From Bacteroidota bacterium (GTDB lineage: Bacteria > Bacteroidota > Rhodothermia > Rhodothermales > Bin80), in contig JAPOTS010000122.1 of the NCBI GenBank assembly GCA_026709065.1, positions 1-40,847 of the forward strand: DNA of 40,847 bases. The letters are read 5' to 3'. This document shows positions 12,850 through 20,254 of the stretch, piece after piece. The position numbers and the translations under genes were made by a program. Positions within the stretch are counted from its first letter, which is position 1. Every line of letters begins with the position of its first letter. The notes under the pieces are model-generated. The model saw only the letters and a program-made list of their open reading frames with translations, did no database searches and was not told where the DNA came from.

Positions 12850-13158
12850 CACGGGATCTGAAATGACTTTTATTTTTCATGATTCGCGATATTTTGCCTA
12901 GTTTTCGGTTGTTTGATTTCAAGATATACGACGAGATATGCGATGTCTAAACAGTTGTCAGAATTAGACAATCAGCATTCTCTTTCGTGTTCTTAGGAAT
13001 ATTTCGTTCGCTTTTTAATGACTTTCTATAGTCAAATACTTTTCCGTCAACGACCATTCAAAGTTTCGGTTTGGGCATTAGAAATTTTACAAATTTTTCT
13101 CTTTAATTTAGCGGTAGTCAAGTATAAAAAATCATATAATGTGTGTGATTTACGATTG
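12850..13158. other. Intergenic region between convergent haem-uptake and methyltransferase genes
   Basis: This is AT-rich DNA with stops in every frame. I see no compact hairpin-plus-T-run terminator, although several T-runs occur near 13012 and 13099. It marks the left border of the defence island. No direct repeat suggesting an insertion boundary was found. Confidence 0.35.
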
Positions 13159-14451
13159 CTACAGGATCGGTGATAGACAGTGCGGATCATCGTAGCTCAT
13201 GGCCTTAGATGTATCTCTCTTATGATACAGAGAGGCTAAGATATCTCCATGCATCTTGGTAAATAGCGGGGGAACGGCCTCGCCTATCATTTGACGTACT
13301 GGCGAATGCCCCCAACGGTCAATCGCCTCTCCCCATTTAAAATCTTCTGGAAAAGTCTGTAGATGGGCACATTCCGCAGGGCTCAAAACACGATTTTCCC
13401 ACGGATGAAGCGTGCGATCGCTTCCAATGTGACCGCTTGCAGTGGTAACCGTTGAAGCAGGTTCATAGGGTGACATTCGTCTATAACTAGAATTTCGGAA
13501 TCCACGAATCATTCTCCATGTTCCATCCTCTTCACGAATGATAGGGCGAAGTAAGGGGCTGGAGCATTGGGGGCATAGAGGAACATCTTGCTCTACATCA
13601 ACAGAGCCGCAGGATGGGCATAGATTTGATTCCCATGCACTTGCACCACTTCTCGGGGGAATAGCGGCGACCATATCATAGCGCTCAGCACAGATCACCG
13701 GAACTTGGTGCATTGGATGTTCAGGAGTATGAGCTGACTCTAATGACTGAGCATCCAGAGAGGGAAGGTTTAACTCACTTAAAGCGTGATCAAGTGTGAC
13801 TTCACATGGCAGATCTGGACTACCATGAGTTGGAAGGGGGAAAGGTGCTTTTTTGGATTGAATCAATACTTCAGCTGAGGCAGAATCTTTACGCACAAAG
13901 GTAAGAAATGCACGATTACGGCTTTGAGGCACTCCATATTTAGATAGATTAATTACCAGAGTATAGAGATGGTAATCCTTCTTCAAACGACGGGTGAGCA
14001 GTGTTGCAGCAGAAACTGGATCCTTTTTTAATGGGTCGTACACTTTTCGTCGAAGGAAAGCAGGTACATTCTCTACGACTATGAAAGTTGGTGCAAGTTC
14101 TTTCGCAACATGCGCAATTGGAAGTGCGAGCAGGTTTCGTCCGTCACGAGTTCCGGCATCTGCATCCGCTTCAAATCCGCGATCACTTTGAGCAGTGCTC
14201 ATTCCTTGACATGGGGGACATCCACAAAGAAGCACTGGGGGTTGCAAACCATACGAGGCTCTGAAAGCATCAACCACTTCGGGCCACGACTGCCGTATAT
14301 CTCCACTTATGGGAACTGCATCTGGATGATTGAGCGATGCCACATCAAGACGTCGTTGTATGATTTCGGAGATCACACAAAACCTGAAACCAGCGGAAGC
14401 ATATCCAACATCGCCAGCGCCACAGTTAGAAAAGAGGCTAACGGCTTTCAC
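13159..14451 (-). CDS. DNA (cytosine-5-)-methyltransferase with zinc-ribbon insert
   Basis: This is a C5 cytosine methyltransferase of 430 residues, the modification component of a restriction system. Motifs in order: I, AVSLFSNCGAGDVGYASAGF (residues 3-22, SAM binding); IV, GCPPCQGMS (77-85, catalytic Cys81); VI, ENVP (127-130); VIII, QSRNRAF (176-182); IX, around PASTVTT (331-337); X, GEAVPP (390-395). The target-recognition region holds a four-cysteine cluster C278-x2-C281 and C293-x2-C296, a zinc-ribbon-like insert unusual for such enzymes. The start is GTG, sharing GTGA with the stop of the upstream ATPase-nuclease, so the two are translationally coupled. The recognition sequence cannot be read from the gene. 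Codon positions look intact, and the enzyme should be active. It is not a solitary housekeeping Dcm, given its partner. Confidence 0.93.
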   Translation of the reverse strand: MKAVSLFSNCGAGDVGYASAGFRFCVISEIIQRRLDVASLNHPDAVPISGDIRQSWPEVVDAFRASYGLQPPVLLCGCPPCQGMSTAQSDRGFEADADAGTRDGRNLLALPIAHVAKELAPTFIVVENVPAFLRRKVYDPLKKDPVSAATLLTRRLKKDYHLYTLVINLSKYGVPQSRNRAFLTFVRKDSASAEVLIQSKKAPFPLPTHGSPDLPCEVTLDHALSELNLPSLDAQSLESAHTPEHPMHQVPVICAERYDMVAAIPPRSGASAWESNLCPSCGSVDVEQDVPLCPQCSSPLLRPIIREEDGTWRMIRGFRNSSYRRMSPYEPASTVTTASGHIGSDRTLHPWENRVLSPAECAHLQTFPEDFKWGEAIDRWGHSPVRQMIGEAVPPLFTKMHGDILASLYHKRDTSKAMSYDDPHCLSPIL

Positions 14452-16502
14452 GATCCACCACGCTCACCCGATAGGCGGTAAGCTTCGTCTCTGACACGAT
14501 CTTGAACATCCAAGAATTGTTCATTTGCTATAGTTGCTCTTGTGAGAAAATCACCCCAAGAAATTTGGATAATTTTTTCCTTATTCCTCCACCAGTCATA
14601 AGCTCTAACCATATCTCGATCCGTGATATTGACAGAATCACATATCAAGTCAACAACCCATCCGCCCTCAAATTTCTGCTCCAATTTGCGGCGAGAACTG
14701 AAAAATTTCTCAAAAGCATCAAGATAATTATGGAGGCGATCCCAGTCATTGTTATTGAATGTATGTCCAACGGCTTTGATTTCAACAATATGAAGTTTTT
14801 GACTCATATTGGCAAGGATAAAGTCTGGGCGTTTGCGACCATGATCAATAGCTAAGCTCACTTTTTCTTGAAACTTCCTATAGTAGTAACTTTCAAATCC
14901 TCGCTTGAACTGTTTCAGGGATTGGTTGATTGTAATGGGTGTCCAAGTAGGTTCAATCAGCCATAGGGCATCTGTAAGAATGGACTGGAGGTCACTTTCG
15001 TCAGGATCATTATGAATTAATTCCGAAAGACGGCGAATCACTTCAACTCGCTCACTGGCAATTTGAGCATAAGAAGCCATTTCTGCAATGCGGGTTTTGG
15101 AGAAAAGGTCAAGGAGTTTGTTAATGCCTCCATTGAGCCCCAATGCTCTGGAGCGAAATTCCTTGAGAGCTTCCATTAAAGCCATATGAGGCGCAACGGT
15201 AAGAATAACCTTCGTGAGAGACTCAACATATTCACCATCATTCAACTCATCCTCTGAGGCTAAGCGTCCAATCTGTTTTCCAAGACGTACGGCCATTGTG
15301 GCCACTTCGCGATCGGCAAAATAGTTGTGTGCTTTTTTATCTAAATCAGATGCCTCAAGAAAAAGCATTTCGACCCTGTCCCTCCGAGGCTGGCGAGAGG
15401 CTGCCCCAATGGCTTTGATCCGATCTGATCCCCATTTTCGTAGGGCTCTTCCGTAATCGGATTCCCACAGAATATCCTGCCGGTCTGTTGTGATCAGATC
15501 CTCACCATCATCCTCATCAATCCAATCCGCATGAACTTCACCGACAAGATAGGATCGTAGAGTAAATTCTCCAGTATAGCCTGCGGGTTTCTCAAAATCT
15601 CTTGTCGTAGCAACAATTTTTCCTCGTGCATAGATACGAACCCCAGCCATTTCTTCATTTTTGTATGCATTTTTTGCAAGTCCCATCCATCCAGTAACTG
15701 GTAACGTTTTCCCATCTTTTAGCTCAACGGGGAGGTCATCAAGAAGAATCCGTGTTTTTTCCATCAATGGGATGTCGTAACAACCTACAATAAAAGGTGT
15801 ATTTTCGTTAGGATTTCTTGAATCCGTCACCTGTATACTAAAGTCTAATTGCTGAATGCCGAATCGAACCGCAAGTTGACGATGGAATGTCTCTCGGTTG
15901 GGCACCCGTTTTGGAAGAAAATTTCTCAAGCGAATGGTGGTCCCTGAAGCGTCCATATAGGTTCGATCCAGTTCTCCACGTTCAATCTCAATCGGCTCAT
16001 CACTATGCTCAAGGATCTTGTCATAATCCATCTTAAAATGTGAAACGATATAACCTTTCTCAGTAGGATCTCCTCCAGCAGAAATCACCTCTATGATTTT
16101 GCAAATTCCAAATGGAGCAAGCTTACCTATTCCTTTTCGCCCCATCACGTTACGGTTCTTATTCCTTGATAGACTTCCAAGTTTTTCATCTTTACGACGA
16201 TCCTTACCAACCCACAGAAAATGTTCGTTCGCATCAGAAGGAGTCATTCCATGGCCATCATCCTTGACTTCAATGACATGTTCAAATTCTTCAATTTCAT
16301 GTGTTGCAGAATTACGTCTTGCTAATAAAGTGTTTAATGGAACTTTTACACTCACATTCTCTGCATCCGCATCATACGCATTGGCAATCAGTTCAGCAAC
16401 CACCGCACTTACTCGATCATATAAACGAACGCCTAATTTATCAACCGTCATGCGAGATATTCGCATCTGATAGGGTCCGATACCATTATTGAAAATAGTC
16501 AT
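14448..16502 (-). CDS. GHKL (MutL/MORC-like) ATPase fused to a PD-(D/E)XK-type nuclease domain
   Basis: The N-terminus of this 684-residue protein is a GHKL ATPase: N-box ELIANAYDAD (37-46, Asn41), G1 box KDDGHGM (80-86) and G2 loop GRKGIGKLA (121-129). A MutL/MORC-like transducer region and a helical stretch follow. Near the C-terminus, RPDFILAN with Asp560 is followed by EIK with Glu574 and Lys576, a convincing PD-(D/E)XK nuclease core. Iyer, Abhiman and Aravind described MutL/MORC-type ATPases in bacterial restriction-modification systems, often beside DNA methyltransferases. This gene fits that picture, because its stop codon overlaps the start of a C5 methyltransferase. I infer that it is the restriction subunit, acting as an ATP-gated dimer that cuts unmodified DNA. 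No separate endonuclease gene is present. Biochemical cleavage and specificity are unknown. It is divergent from the DUF262 gene. Confidence 0.85.
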   Translation of the reverse strand: MTIFNNGIGPYQMRISRMTVDKLGVRLYDRVSAVVAELIANAYDADAENVSVKVPLNTLLARRNSATHEIEEFEHVIEVKDDGHGMTPSDANEHFLWVGKDRRKDEKLGSLSRNKNRNVMGRKGIGKLAPFGICKIIEVISAGGDPTEKGYIVSHFKMDYDKILEHSDEPIEIERGELDRTYMDASGTTIRLRNFLPKRVPNRETFHRQLAVRFGIQQLDFSIQVTDSRNPNENTPFIVGCYDIPLMEKTRILLDDLPVELKDGKTLPVTGWMGLAKNAYKNEEMAGVRIYARGKIVATTRDFEKPAGYTGEFTLRSYLVGEVHADWIDEDDGEDLITTDRQDILWESDYGRALRKWGSDRIKAIGAASRQPRRDRVEMLFLEASDLDKKAHNYFADREVATMAVRLGKQIGRLASEDELNDGEYVESLTKVILTVAPHMALMEALKEFRSRALGLNGGINKLLDLFSKTRIAEMASYAQIASERVEVIRRLSELIHNDPDESDLQSILTDALWLIEPTWTPITINQSLKQFKRGFESYYYRKFQEKVSLAIDHGRKRPDFILANMSQKLHIVEIKAVGHTFNNNDWDRLHNYLDAFEKFFSSRRKLEQKFEGGWVVDLICDSVNITDRDMVRAYDWWRNKEKIIQISWGDFLTRATIANEQFLDVQDRVRDEAYRLSGERGGS

Positions 16503-16984
16503 CTTCAGGATTAATGATTTAAATGATGAGACAAACTAAAATTCATCCTTCTGTAGCAGTTTTGGTAAATGAACCCTAATAAGTATGGATTTTGATGGTT
16601 TGACCTATATCATACAAAAATACGAACAAAAATGATTATAGATTCCGTATAATAGCAAGATTTTGTTACGATTAGTGAATGCCACCCAGCCCTTGCCAAC
16701 AGCGCGTTCTCCGTGCAATCGATTATTGGTATCGCCAAAAGCCTTCATGATTGCGCCAGAAAATAGAAGAGACTCAACTACCCCTCATGAAGTTTTCCTA
16801 AACGATTACTGAGATCTCTGCAGTTGAATGGGCACCGGAAAATATGGCGGCGGTTTGGTTGATTGAACCAATCAAATTTTACACGATTCTTCATCTCTCG
16901 GTGCCACACTAAAATCGTATGGATACAAACATCACACCGAATGCGTATCTTTTGATTTATTCAATATCCTTTTGAGATCCATTT
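16503..16984. other. Divergent control region of the defence island, with nested inverted repeats
   Basis: No full gene. A TATAAT box occurs near 16649. A 23-codon frame at 16679-16750 (starting MPPSPCQQRVLRAIDYWYR) ends at TGA and may be a relic. Nested inverted repeats are present: an outer GGCACCG (16831-16837) with CGGTGCC (16899-16905), and an inner TTGGTT/AACCAA hairpin at 16855-16871 with a 5-nt loop. These lie 80-150 bp before the DUF262 gene and could form a structured leader or operator. Another frame over 16820-16912 reads openly for about 30 codons, so decayed coding sequence is also possible. Confidence 0.4.
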
Positions 16985-18928
16985 ATGACAACTATAAATA
17001 TCATTCTTGCAAATGTGGCTGCAGAGCAAATCACCCTTCCCGACTTTCAGAGAGGATTTGTATGGAAACGAAAACATGTTCGAGATTTTTTTCACTCTCT
17101 TTATCATGAACATCCATTCGGTTGCCTCCTCACTTGGCTTACCACCCGAAATGGTGTCAAAACTGAGCTCATCCTTGACGGACAGCAACGAATCACCTCG
17201 CTTTACGGTGTGACCACAGGAAAAACTCCCAAATTCTTTCGGGGCGATCAATCAGTACTGAAGGGGCTTCACTTTCATGTCAAGGAGAAAATATTTGAAT
17301 ATTATCAACGTGTTAAAATGGAGGGGAATCCACTGTGGTTTGATGTCACTAAGGTAATGCGAGCTGGAACCAGCGGAATAGAATCCTTAATAAATGAACA
17401 AGGTTTCAGTAAATATAATCCTGAAGATCAAGTAAAAATCTTGCTAGCCTTGTCTAAATTAGTCGGCATTCTTCAAAGGCCTATATATGTTGAAAAAATC
17501 GCAGATGAGAACAAAGATCCTGATGTGGTCGTCGATATATTCAATCAAATTAATAGCTCTGGTACCAGATTGTCCAAGGGAGATTTAGCACTGGCGAAAA
17601 TTTCTGCTAAATGGCCCTCTGTGCGCGATGAAATGCGTAAATCCTTGAAAAAATGGGAAAACTATGGCTATGATTTTCCCATGGATTGGCTTCTCAGATG
17701 TGTAAACGCCGTCATCCACGGTGAAGCAGATTTTAAACACTTACATCAAACAGACCGAAATACATATGAAACAGGACTTAAAAAAACCATAAAGTATATT
17801 GATATAGTCCTGAATCAAATCTCTGGTAAACTCGGGATAGATCATGATAGAGTGTTGTTTTCAAAATTTTCCTTACCAATCTTGATTAGACATTTGGAAT
17901 TATGTAATGGTAGACAAATGAGTGCTCAAGAGTGGAATTTGATTCTTTACTGGTATCTGCAGACTGGGATCCACGGAAGATATTCAAGTACTACGGAATC
18001 AAAAATCAGACAAGATTTGACACATTTGGATGGTCAACTCAGTGGAATACAGCATCTGATTTCAGGCATTGGTCTGTCCTGGGGACGCACACAAATTCTT
18101 CCAGTCAATTTTGATTCTTGGGCTCTTAATGCTCGGACCTATCCTATACTATACTGGATGACTCGGGTGGGAGGAGCACAAAATTTTTGTGACGGAATTC
18201 AGCTCAAACAAAATCTCTTAGGTCAAGGTGCACAATTAAATGTCCATCATATATTCCCCAAAGCAAGACTTTATGAATTTGGGTACACTCGACCACAAGT
18301 GAATGCTGTTGGTAATTTCTGTTTTCTTACCGCCGCCTGTAATGGACTGATCAATGCTTATCTACCAGACAATATTGCTGATTCCTCTATACCATCTGGC
18401 ATTAATTCAGATGGTTACTTCTATTGGATCAAGAAAAATCATCCTGAAGCATTACAATCGCATTGGATTCCAATGGATGAAGAGTTGTGGAAGATTGAAA
18501 ATTATCTAGAATTCCTTAATGCTCGAAGACACATATTAGCCAATGCTGCCAATGAGCATTTGAGATCTTTGAATCCCAATCATCCTCATAACGAAAGCAT
18601 CCCAGAACCGTCTCTTCAACAAATGAAACACACTGAAACTGTTGCTGAAGAGACTCAATTAAAGGAAGTTCAATCGTGGATGAAGTCACAACAACTGCCG
18701 TCAGGTATATTTGGCTATGACCTTGGTCAATCTGATCAAGATAATGTAAGAACAATTATAGATCTAGCATGGCCAGATGGAATCTGTGAAGGCCTTGATA
18801 GCCCGTTGGCACTTCTACTCAATGAATCTGCAGAAACGTATCAAATCGTCAATCAATCTGGATACCAATGCTTTGTTGATGTTGAGTCCTTCAAAACGTA
18901 TGTTGAGTCTGAAATCGTTGGTGTTTAG
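16985..18928 (+). CDS. DUF262-HNH protein, GmrSD-like modification-dependent restriction endonuclease
   Basis: The N-terminal DUF262 (GmrS/ParB-like) domain contains LPDFQRGFVWKRKHVRDFF (18-36) and the signature DGQQRITSLYG (65-75), associated with nucleotide binding and hydrolysis. A helical middle segment includes the DUF262-typical FNQINSSGTRLSKGDLALA. The GmrD-like HNH nuclease motif follows: HHIFPKARL at about 421-429 with an Asn in VGNFCFLT about 20 residues later. Fused GmrSD enzymes cut phage DNA carrying modified cytosines; relatives such as SspE and BrxU recognise other modifications. About 110 further residues at the C-terminus, beyond roughly position 535, have no motif I know. 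The gene is divergent from the methyltransferase/ATPase-nuclease operon, so the locus combines a system attacking unmodified DNA with one attacking modified DNA. Length is 647; no defects are seen. Confidence 0.87.
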   Translation: MTTINIILANVAAEQITLPDFQRGFVWKRKHVRDFFHSLYHEHPFGCLLTWLTTRNGVKTELILDGQQRITSLYGVTTGKTPKFFRGDQSVLKGLHFHVKEKIFEYYQRVKMEGNPLWFDVTKVMRAGTSGIESLINEQGFSKYNPEDQVKILLALSKLVGILQRPIYVEKIADENKDPDVVVDIFNQINSSGTRLSKGDLALAKISAKWPSVRDEMRKSLKKWENYGYDFPMDWLLRCVNAVIHGEADFKHLHQTDRNTYETGLKKTIKYIDIVLNQISGKLGIDHDRVLFSKFSLPILIRHLELCNGRQMSAQEWNLILYWYLQTGIHGRYSSTTESKIRQDLTHLDGQLSGIQHLISGIGLSWGRTQILPVNFDSWALNARTYPILYWMTRVGGAQNFCDGIQLKQNLLGQGAQLNVHHIFPKARLYEFGYTRPQVNAVGNFCFLTAACNGLINAYLPDNIADSSIPSGINSDGYFYWIKKNHPEALQSHWIPMDEELWKIENYLEFLNARRHILANAANEHLRSLNPNHPHNESIPEPSLQQMKHTETVAEETQLKEVQSWMKSQQLPSGIFGYDLGQSDQDNVRTIIDLAWPDGICEGLDSPLALLLNESAETYQIVNQSGYQCFVDVESFKTYVESEIVGV

Positions 18929-20254
18929 CCATAGAAGATTTTTTACTCTCATTCCGAAGTCTAATCATTCCTATTTACTGACCATCATCTAAACTCCTAT
19001 GCCATAAAGTAATCCATATTTTACGAATTATTTGCTCCTTAACGATGAGTCTGTATCAACAACTTTCTCCCAATTCTTAAGTCGGTTTCCGCCTTTGATC
19101 ACTATCAGGTTGAAAAGCTTAAATGATAATTTAGCTTGTGGTTGAAGGCTATTTTATCACCCAAAACCCCAACTGTGACATTAGAGAAATGATCCTATGA
19201 TTGTTCTTCATTTACGAGCATCCAACGAACTATGGCTAATATGGGGAGAATTATCAATCAATTTGAAAACACATTAAATACCAGAATCTACCCTACGGTG
19301 TGACCTTAAAGAAATTAGCACAAGCGGTGGTTATTGGTGATCAGCGTATTAACCCAACAACGCATCATCATGCGTGTTATCTACAAAAGCGTAGATTCCA
19401 CTACCCTCAAGCCCCATGGTGCAGATGTGGAAGCTGAAAAACCTGACCAGATTGTTCGCCCTTAGCCGATGCCAATCAACGATATTTCGCCAGAAAAATC
19501 TCTTGGTTTATCGATGGATTCAAGCGGGAAAGAATGCTTGAGCAGGGAGTCATCCTTGGTTCAGGTAAACGCTTTTGGTATTGTAGAGTCAAGAGGTCGG
19601 CGCGTTTCTTGTCCAAGGAAAAGAATCATTCCATGCCGTATAGTAACGATCATTAAGGAGATAATTAAGAAATCCTTCTTTTCTTACAGATGCAATGCAT
19701 GATAAGAAAATTACTACACCTGAAGAAGCACTCCTTAAAGATTATTCACAGATATTGAATTTCTGTATTGATGATTTAATAGGCCCTTTTACAACTAAAC
19801 GAGGATTAAACTTAGCCAACTAAAATCAATCAAGAAAATGTATCACTTCACAAGTATCAATACAGTAAATCATCAATTGACATAAGATTGCACATTGATG
19901 ATTTATCTGTTATTTGGAACCCTTTGTGAGAAAAGATGATGGAGTTATTTTGGAACACACATTTTGCGGGAGTAACACTTATCAGAAAGGGAGAGCGCTA
20001 AGCACTCCCCCTAACTGATTCACCAAAATCTTTTATTCATGCTCTAAATGAAGCACCAATGAGGATTCTAATGAAGGGATCAAAGAATTGTTCCATATAT
20101 GATGAATCATTTTTAAGGAAATCCTGCTACTATCCATATCTGTATTGATAAATATTATATATTTGGTCAAATTGCAGTCCATGCTTATTTTGATTTCAAC
20201 CATATCCTCAATCATTTACTGATCGGTTGGATTAATATTTACCAAAAATAGACG
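18929..20254. other. Long relic zone downstream of the DUF262 gene
   Basis: These 1.3 kb contain no intact recognisable gene. Protein-like pieces appear in shifting frames: a piece around 19289-19430 starting LPYGVTLKKLAQAVVIGDQ and ending at a stop; a 77-codon frame at 19469-19702 of low quality; and a 42-codon frame at 19695-19823 beginning MHDKKITTPEEALLKDYSQI with good protein composition. The pattern is what remains after a gene or insertion decays. I could not assign a family. Some short AT-rich dyads are present but no strong terminator was identified. Confidence 0.4.

Follow-up and report, generated by a model that had tools for sequence, protein, structure and literature searches.

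We find that the defence locus in the window, by which we mean the whole 40,847-nt stretch of a Bacteroidota genome analysed here (contig JAPOTS010000122.1), is best explained as two independent enzymes of known anti-phage kinds lying in one integration hotspot, a type II-like pair and a BrxU-type GmrSD enzyme, a reading to which we assign a probability of about 0.78. The pair, a C5 cytosine DNA methyltransferase (MTase) and a GHKL ATPase that carries a nuclease domain, is a known but little-studied kind of defence pair, and the DUF262 gene beside it encodes a separate defence enzyme; in place of the three-part defence system proposed in an initial annotation we see two known parts brought together in a hotspot. 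The evidence lies in the domains and residues of the proteins, in the co-evolution of the MTase and the GHKL protein, and in the missing linkage of the DUF262 gene. The three genes are open reading frames where that annotation had placed them (Table 1), the GHKL stop and the MTase GTG start overlap as it described, and the GHKL and DUF262 genes are divergent, with 482 bp between their starts, inside the 500 bp it had given.

Table 1 Coordinates of the features of the defence locus in the window
Feature	Position	Strand	Details
C5 cytosine DNA methyltransferase (MTase)	13159..14451	-	430 aa, GTG start; Pfam DNA_methylase E 2.9e-35
GHKL ATPase with S5-like domain and C-terminal PD-(D/E)XK nuclease	14448..16502	-	684 aa; predicted restriction subunit; HATPase_c_3 E 4.5e-19
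Overlap (GTGA) between the GHKL stop and the MTase start	14448..14451	-	4 nt
Nuclease-domain coding part of the GHKL gene (residues 495-684; E502, D560, E574, K576)	14451..15020	-	
Remnant of an EcsC-family gene, frameshifted, between the MTase-GHKL pair and the DUF262 gene	16679..16968	+	two collinear tblastn pieces
DUF262-HNH protein, BrxU/HEC-05-type GmrSD family	16985..18928	+	647 aa; predicted type IV restriction enzyme; GmrSD_N E 1e-27
Start of a decayed SNF2 helicase gene	19197..19574	+	tblastn, DNA match, shuffle score

The ATPase motifs and the D560/E574/K576 core stand at the positions reported for them in the initial annotation, and alignments reveal no loss of these residues: across 62 homologues of at least 35% identity, all 14 positions tested in the GHKL region and D560 are kept in 62 of 62, E502 in 61, and E574 and K576 in 60. 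E502 completes, as a fourth residue, the E-D-ExK set given for the C-terminal nuclease of paraMORC3 by Iyer, Abhiman and Aravind in 2008 (PMC2292703), and, judged from sequence and model together, the window protein combines the GHKL ATP-binding motifs and S5-like domain of that family with its C-terminal E-D-ExK nuclease domain. In an AlphaFold model of the whole GHKL protein (mean pLDDT 82), residues 1-370 match MORC3 and MORC2, the best match being MORC3 (Z 21.8, rmsd 4.0, 296 aligned residues, 15% identity), and the secondary structure that the model gives the nuclease domain follows the expected order. Structure searches with the whole model are filled by matches to its ATPase part, and the nuclease domain finds no significant match among solved structures, with hits to NucS (E 0.14, weak) and chance matches; the nuclease D and E are invariant in 28 clade members. 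A decayed or inactive pair that survives as an orphan methyltransferase only is scarcely credible: pseudogenes do lie in the surrounding hotspot, but both reading frames are open, all tested catalytic residues are kept, and a sister species (G270) carries a pair that is 88-89% identical to that of the window.

The best full-length NCBIfam family of the window GHKL protein is NF050001, the BbrUII/HgiDII restriction enzyme (E 5.6e-77), and its 259.8 bits fall below the curated cut-off of 550, which rules out plain membership of that family; PADLOC labels the pair REase_II (GHKL protein) and MTase_II. The host genome encodes two more MTase-GHKL pairs (L041 and L042), whose GHKL proteins score 703 and 730 bits on NF050001, above the cut-off, and which their sequences identify as true BbrUII/HgiDII family members; the window pair, with its GHKL protein under the cut-off, is therefore a third, diverged pair of the host. 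A scan of one genome per species (84,980 species) was used to collect GHKL relatives, and of the best 79 loci kept from it about 60 hold relatives with identities of roughly 35-88%, spread over many bacterial phyla and archaea, alongside a distant group at 26-31% identity. A maximum-likelihood tree (43 rows) sets the 27 rows of the window clade apart by a branch of 1.85 with support of 100/100, and the other side of the tree includes one BbrUII-type protein of the host. The GHKL-nuclease and MTase pairs form a conserved clade, widespread in bacteria and archaea, and we know of no member of the window's own clade with known activity. The window GHKL protein can be read, by layout, as a paraMORC3 protein (type I-D Shedu-like), and by sequence as a distant relative of the BbrUII/HgiDII enzymes. 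Two viral contigs (L194 and L195) encode a GHKL protein of the window type, at 39% identity, and a methyltransferase whose gene overlaps that of the GHKL protein.

The MTase bears the motifs PPCQ79-82, ENV127-129 and QxRxR176-180 in a 19-member alignment and, in its specificity region, a zinc ribbon (C278/C281/C293/C296), in which C278, C281 and C293 are invariant and C296 is kept in at least 90% of the same 19 members; the clade methyltransferases have PPCQ, ENV, QxRxR and the four zinc-ribbon cysteines in common. A search of solved structures for a close relative of the MTase returned general C5 methyltransferases only. The same 4-nt overlap with the GHKL gene, as GTGA or ATGA, recurs in 10 further members from several phyla, the sister species included, and would couple translation of the two genes. 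Protein distances of GHKL proteins and MTases are strongly correlated (Mantel r = 0.94, p = 0.0001, n = 19 pairs), a correlation to which shared host ancestry can contribute, and a C5 MTase adjoins the GHKL gene at 75 of 80 viral loci and in most relatives outside Nocardia. Because the MTase and the GHKL protein co-evolved, the pair is best read as a type II-like restriction-modification unit, as the initial annotation had supposed.

Within Nocardia, 16 relatives have a window-clade GHKL-nuclease with no C5 MTase within 6 kb (L082, L084-L087, L089-L091, L093, L094, L099, L100, L103, L106, L108 and L125), so that the nuclease can exist without an MTase partner. These loci, the layout of VcSduA, which is described without a methyltransferase partner (PMC12137116), and SduA_C Pfam matches in 15 of 28 clade members (E 4.2e-6 at best, with no Pfam match for the domain of the window protein taken alone) would all fit a GHKL-nuclease that acts directly on phage as a Shedu-like (type I-D) enzyme blind to methylation, with the MTase in some other role, e.g., regulation or a separate mark. 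We consider this unlikely in view of the tight GHKL-MTase co-evolution, the recurring overlap, the presence of the MTase at nearly all viral copies, and the identity of the best full-length family, BbrUII/HgiDII. In the type II-like reading that we prefer, the C5 methyltransferase would mark the host's own DNA at a short sequence, the GHKL protein would dimerise on ATP as a MORC/Hsp90-like clamp, and the C-terminal PD-(D/E)XK domain would cut the same sequence when it is unmethylated; the role of ATP, the restriction activity and its specificity are all predicted here.

Vsr is the usual companion of 5mC methyltransferases, and a Vsr, recognised by sequence motif, adjoins or is fused to some of the clade MTases. 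One Dehalococcoidia member has a Vsr-like stretch in frame ahead of its methyltransferase (L072:8101-9774). In Proteobacteria (L055, L056, L057, L058, L059 and L083), a second GHKL gene stands after the GHKL-MTase pair on the opposite strand, its product diverged and bearing a PD-(D/E)XK-like motif of its own, and at the two loci read closely (L055 and L057) a gene that is Vsr-like by motif only lies between the pair and the second GHKL gene. It is possible, though doubtful, that the window clade constitutes a separate branch of ATP-gated type II restriction-modification, in which a GHKL clamp would close on ATP before a Shedu-type nuclease cuts, the zinc-ribbon MTase would read a sequence other than GTCGAC, and Proteobacteria would add Vsr and a second GHKL-nuclease to the unit.

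A GmrSD-like enzyme does lie near the pair, as the initial annotation proposed. Beyond its GmrSD_N match, the DUF262 protein matches PADLOC HEC-05 (E 4e-35), which is equated with BrxU in one paper (PMC11411939), and gives a full-length profile match to BrxU itself (7p9k, E 1.7e-37); 7p9k is also the top Foldseek match of its structural model (E 1.6e-14). The motifs QR22-23, DGQQR65-69, F186-N190, HHIFP421-425 and N453 agree with tested GmrSD enzymes, with D65-R69 invariant in the 17-18 DUF262 relatives aligned, and H422 and N453 invariant in the alignment of relatives. Sequence and model point to a DUF262 domain with DGQQR and a C-terminal His-Me (DUF1524-like) nuclease, as in the GmrSD/BrxU enzymes; the HNH part finds no match in Pfam and is seen by motif and by a BrxU alignment that runs through the C-terminal domain. 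BrxU is known for ATP-dependent cutting of DNA with 5mC, 5hmC or glucosylated 5hmC (PMC8565348, PMC12409352), and the window enzyme would likewise sense modified bases, its putative substrates, via the DUF262 domain, with nucleotide hydrolysis, and cut with its predicted His-Me nuclease. The last ~90 residues of the DUF262 protein (window 18655-18925) are kept in close relatives, missing in shorter DUF262 relatives, and unaligned with BrxU, and the extra C-terminal part that reaches past the BrxU alignment comes to about 80 residues. Elsewhere the DUF262 gene occurs within a type I restriction island (L030), as a lone gene (L031), and on plasmids, in varied contexts.

Conservation of the three-gene order, put forward in the initial annotation as a check on its proposal, is not seen: a DUF262 gene lies within 6 kb of the GHKL gene at 0 of the best 79 genomic loci and 0 of 80 viral loci, some loci being bounded by contig ends, and a GHKL or MTase gene stands beside DUF262 at 0 of 48 viral DUF262 loci. 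The GHKL protein is present in 10, the DUF262 protein in 8, and both in 3 (G000, G270 and G215, all of one family) of 296 genomes from the phylum; the genes are adjacent in the window only, and the pair and the DUF262 gene are on different contigs in G270 and G215. DNA of the sister species aligns with the window from 13141 to 16916 at 84% identity, where the match ends, and there is no DUF262 gene beside its pair; its DUF262 gene, 57% identical to that of the window, lies on a separate contig with SNF2 and SWIM genes after it. The missing linkage at these genomic and viral loci, together with the arrangement in the sister species, leads us to reject a three-gene unit, and, as far as gene neighbourhoods go, the DUF262 gene fails to co-occur with the pair in related genomes, the outcome that the initial annotation had itself named as telling against one system. 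The rival reading, in which the three genes form one layered system selected jointly, the pair cutting unmodified DNA and the DUF262 enzyme modified DNA, could draw on their adjacency in the window, on their joint presence in three genomes of one family, and on BREX with BrxU as a tested precedent of complementary defence (PMC8565348). We regard it as very improbable, as adjacency recurs at none of the loci surveyed, the two parts are on different contigs in both other genomes, a pseudogene (EcsC) separates them in the window, and GrwAB and VcSduA, which are similarly co-located in Vibrio cholerae, were judged to be independent systems (PMC12137116).

Two independent enzymes in a hotspot also accord with what surrounds the genes. 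Most of the gap between the GHKL and DUF262 genes, from 16679, is a decayed EcsC gene, identified by tblastn at 57% and 56% identity (E 1.3e-19) to an EcsC gene of the sister species, and for this reason we reject a shared regulatory region as the chief explanation for the gap. The SNF2 remnant beyond the DUF262 gene is detected as two collinear pieces (tblastn E 0.002), by 42 bp of DNA that match another SNF2 gene in the hotspot, and by a best-frame score of 72, where shuffled sequences average 33.6 and reach at most 47; SNF2 starts 269 bp after DUF262 in the window and 266 bp after it in G270, and the helicase gene is therefore a neighbour that the DUF262 gene has in common with its nearest relative.

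The defence block of the window (12850-20254) is flanked by a TonB-HmuY pair (hmuY) and an FAD reductase gene. In G167 the same flanks are separated by 358 bp, an empty state, and in G297 and G298 by about 43 and 38 kb with many defence genes, which include C5 MTase-Vsr-MORC-Z1-AIPR, an MTase with HEF_HK and Response_reg_2 proteins, and ZorA-like and Dsr1-like proteins. The assemblies of relatives are fragmented and both flanks are on one contig in four genomes only, of which G297 and G298 are alike, so that the hotspot rests on three distinct states. We conclude that one variable defence hotspot, between hmuY and the reductase gene, houses the pair as well as the DUF262 gene, and this explains their co-location. 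The hotspot loci of the relatives are L301, L302-L304 and L305-L307. The genes beside the reductase in G270 were considered as a type III Mod-Res system, which is ruled out, since the second gene encodes a ribonucleotide reductase, leaving only an N6/N4 methyltransferase.

The initial annotation further held that the DUF262 protein must tolerate the host's own 5mC. This constraint is real for a BrxU-like enzyme, as BrxU cuts fully 5mC-substituted DNA (PMC12409352, PMC8565348), but it is not specific to the locus: at least three C5 methyltransferase genes of the host adjoin a GHKL gene, and the DUF262 enzyme, if BrxU-like, must tolerate the marks of all host 5mC MTases, which makes the constraint genome-wide. 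BrxU was tested with every cytosine replaced, and sparse 5mC marks may therefore simply escape cutting by a BrxU-like enzyme.

Comparison with known systems places each part of the locus near enzymes that have been described. The pair resembles the BbrUII/HgiDII type II enzymes (with M.BbrUII/M.HgiDII, the site of M.HgiDII being GTCGAC) in joining a C5 methyltransferase to a GHKL protein of equal length and layout, and its methyltransferase is adjacent, as in those systems; it differs in that the window clade is separate and on a long branch (260 bits vs 550), that the GHKL gene precedes the MTase gene whereas the host's two true members have the MTase first, and that the window MTase has a zinc ribbon. 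With paraMORC3 the GHKL protein shares N-terminal GHKL and S5 domains and a C-terminal RE-fold domain with E-D-ExK (PMC2292703); we find no essential difference, the window protein fitting the description, and C5 MTases and Vsr are described as neighbours of these GHKL families (PMC2292703). MORC2 and MORC3 have the same ATPase-S5 fold, but at 15% identity and with the C-terminal nuclease outside the match. The DUF262 protein resembles BrxU/HEC-05 in its DUF262 domain with DGQQR and its C-terminal His-Me finger, and differs from BrxU in having 19% identity in the structural alignment and HHIFP vs DHIYP. VcSduA, a type I-D Shedu protein, is similar when compared by layout, with a GHKL ATPase followed by a PD-(D/E)XK domain, which in VcSduA is of the SduA_C (DUF4263) type and in the window protein may be, and differs in its lack of a described methyltransferase partner; in Vibrio cholerae it protects against phages, and both domains are needed (PMC12137116). 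The statement in the initial annotation that bench studies exist for few MutL/MORC-type ATPases in restriction systems should be brought up to date in light of VcSduA and of the characterised BbrUII/HgiDII-family methyltransferases (PMC5867850), and the window clade is near enough to both BbrUII/HgiDII and VcSduA to make the role of ATP in such restriction enzymes directly testable.
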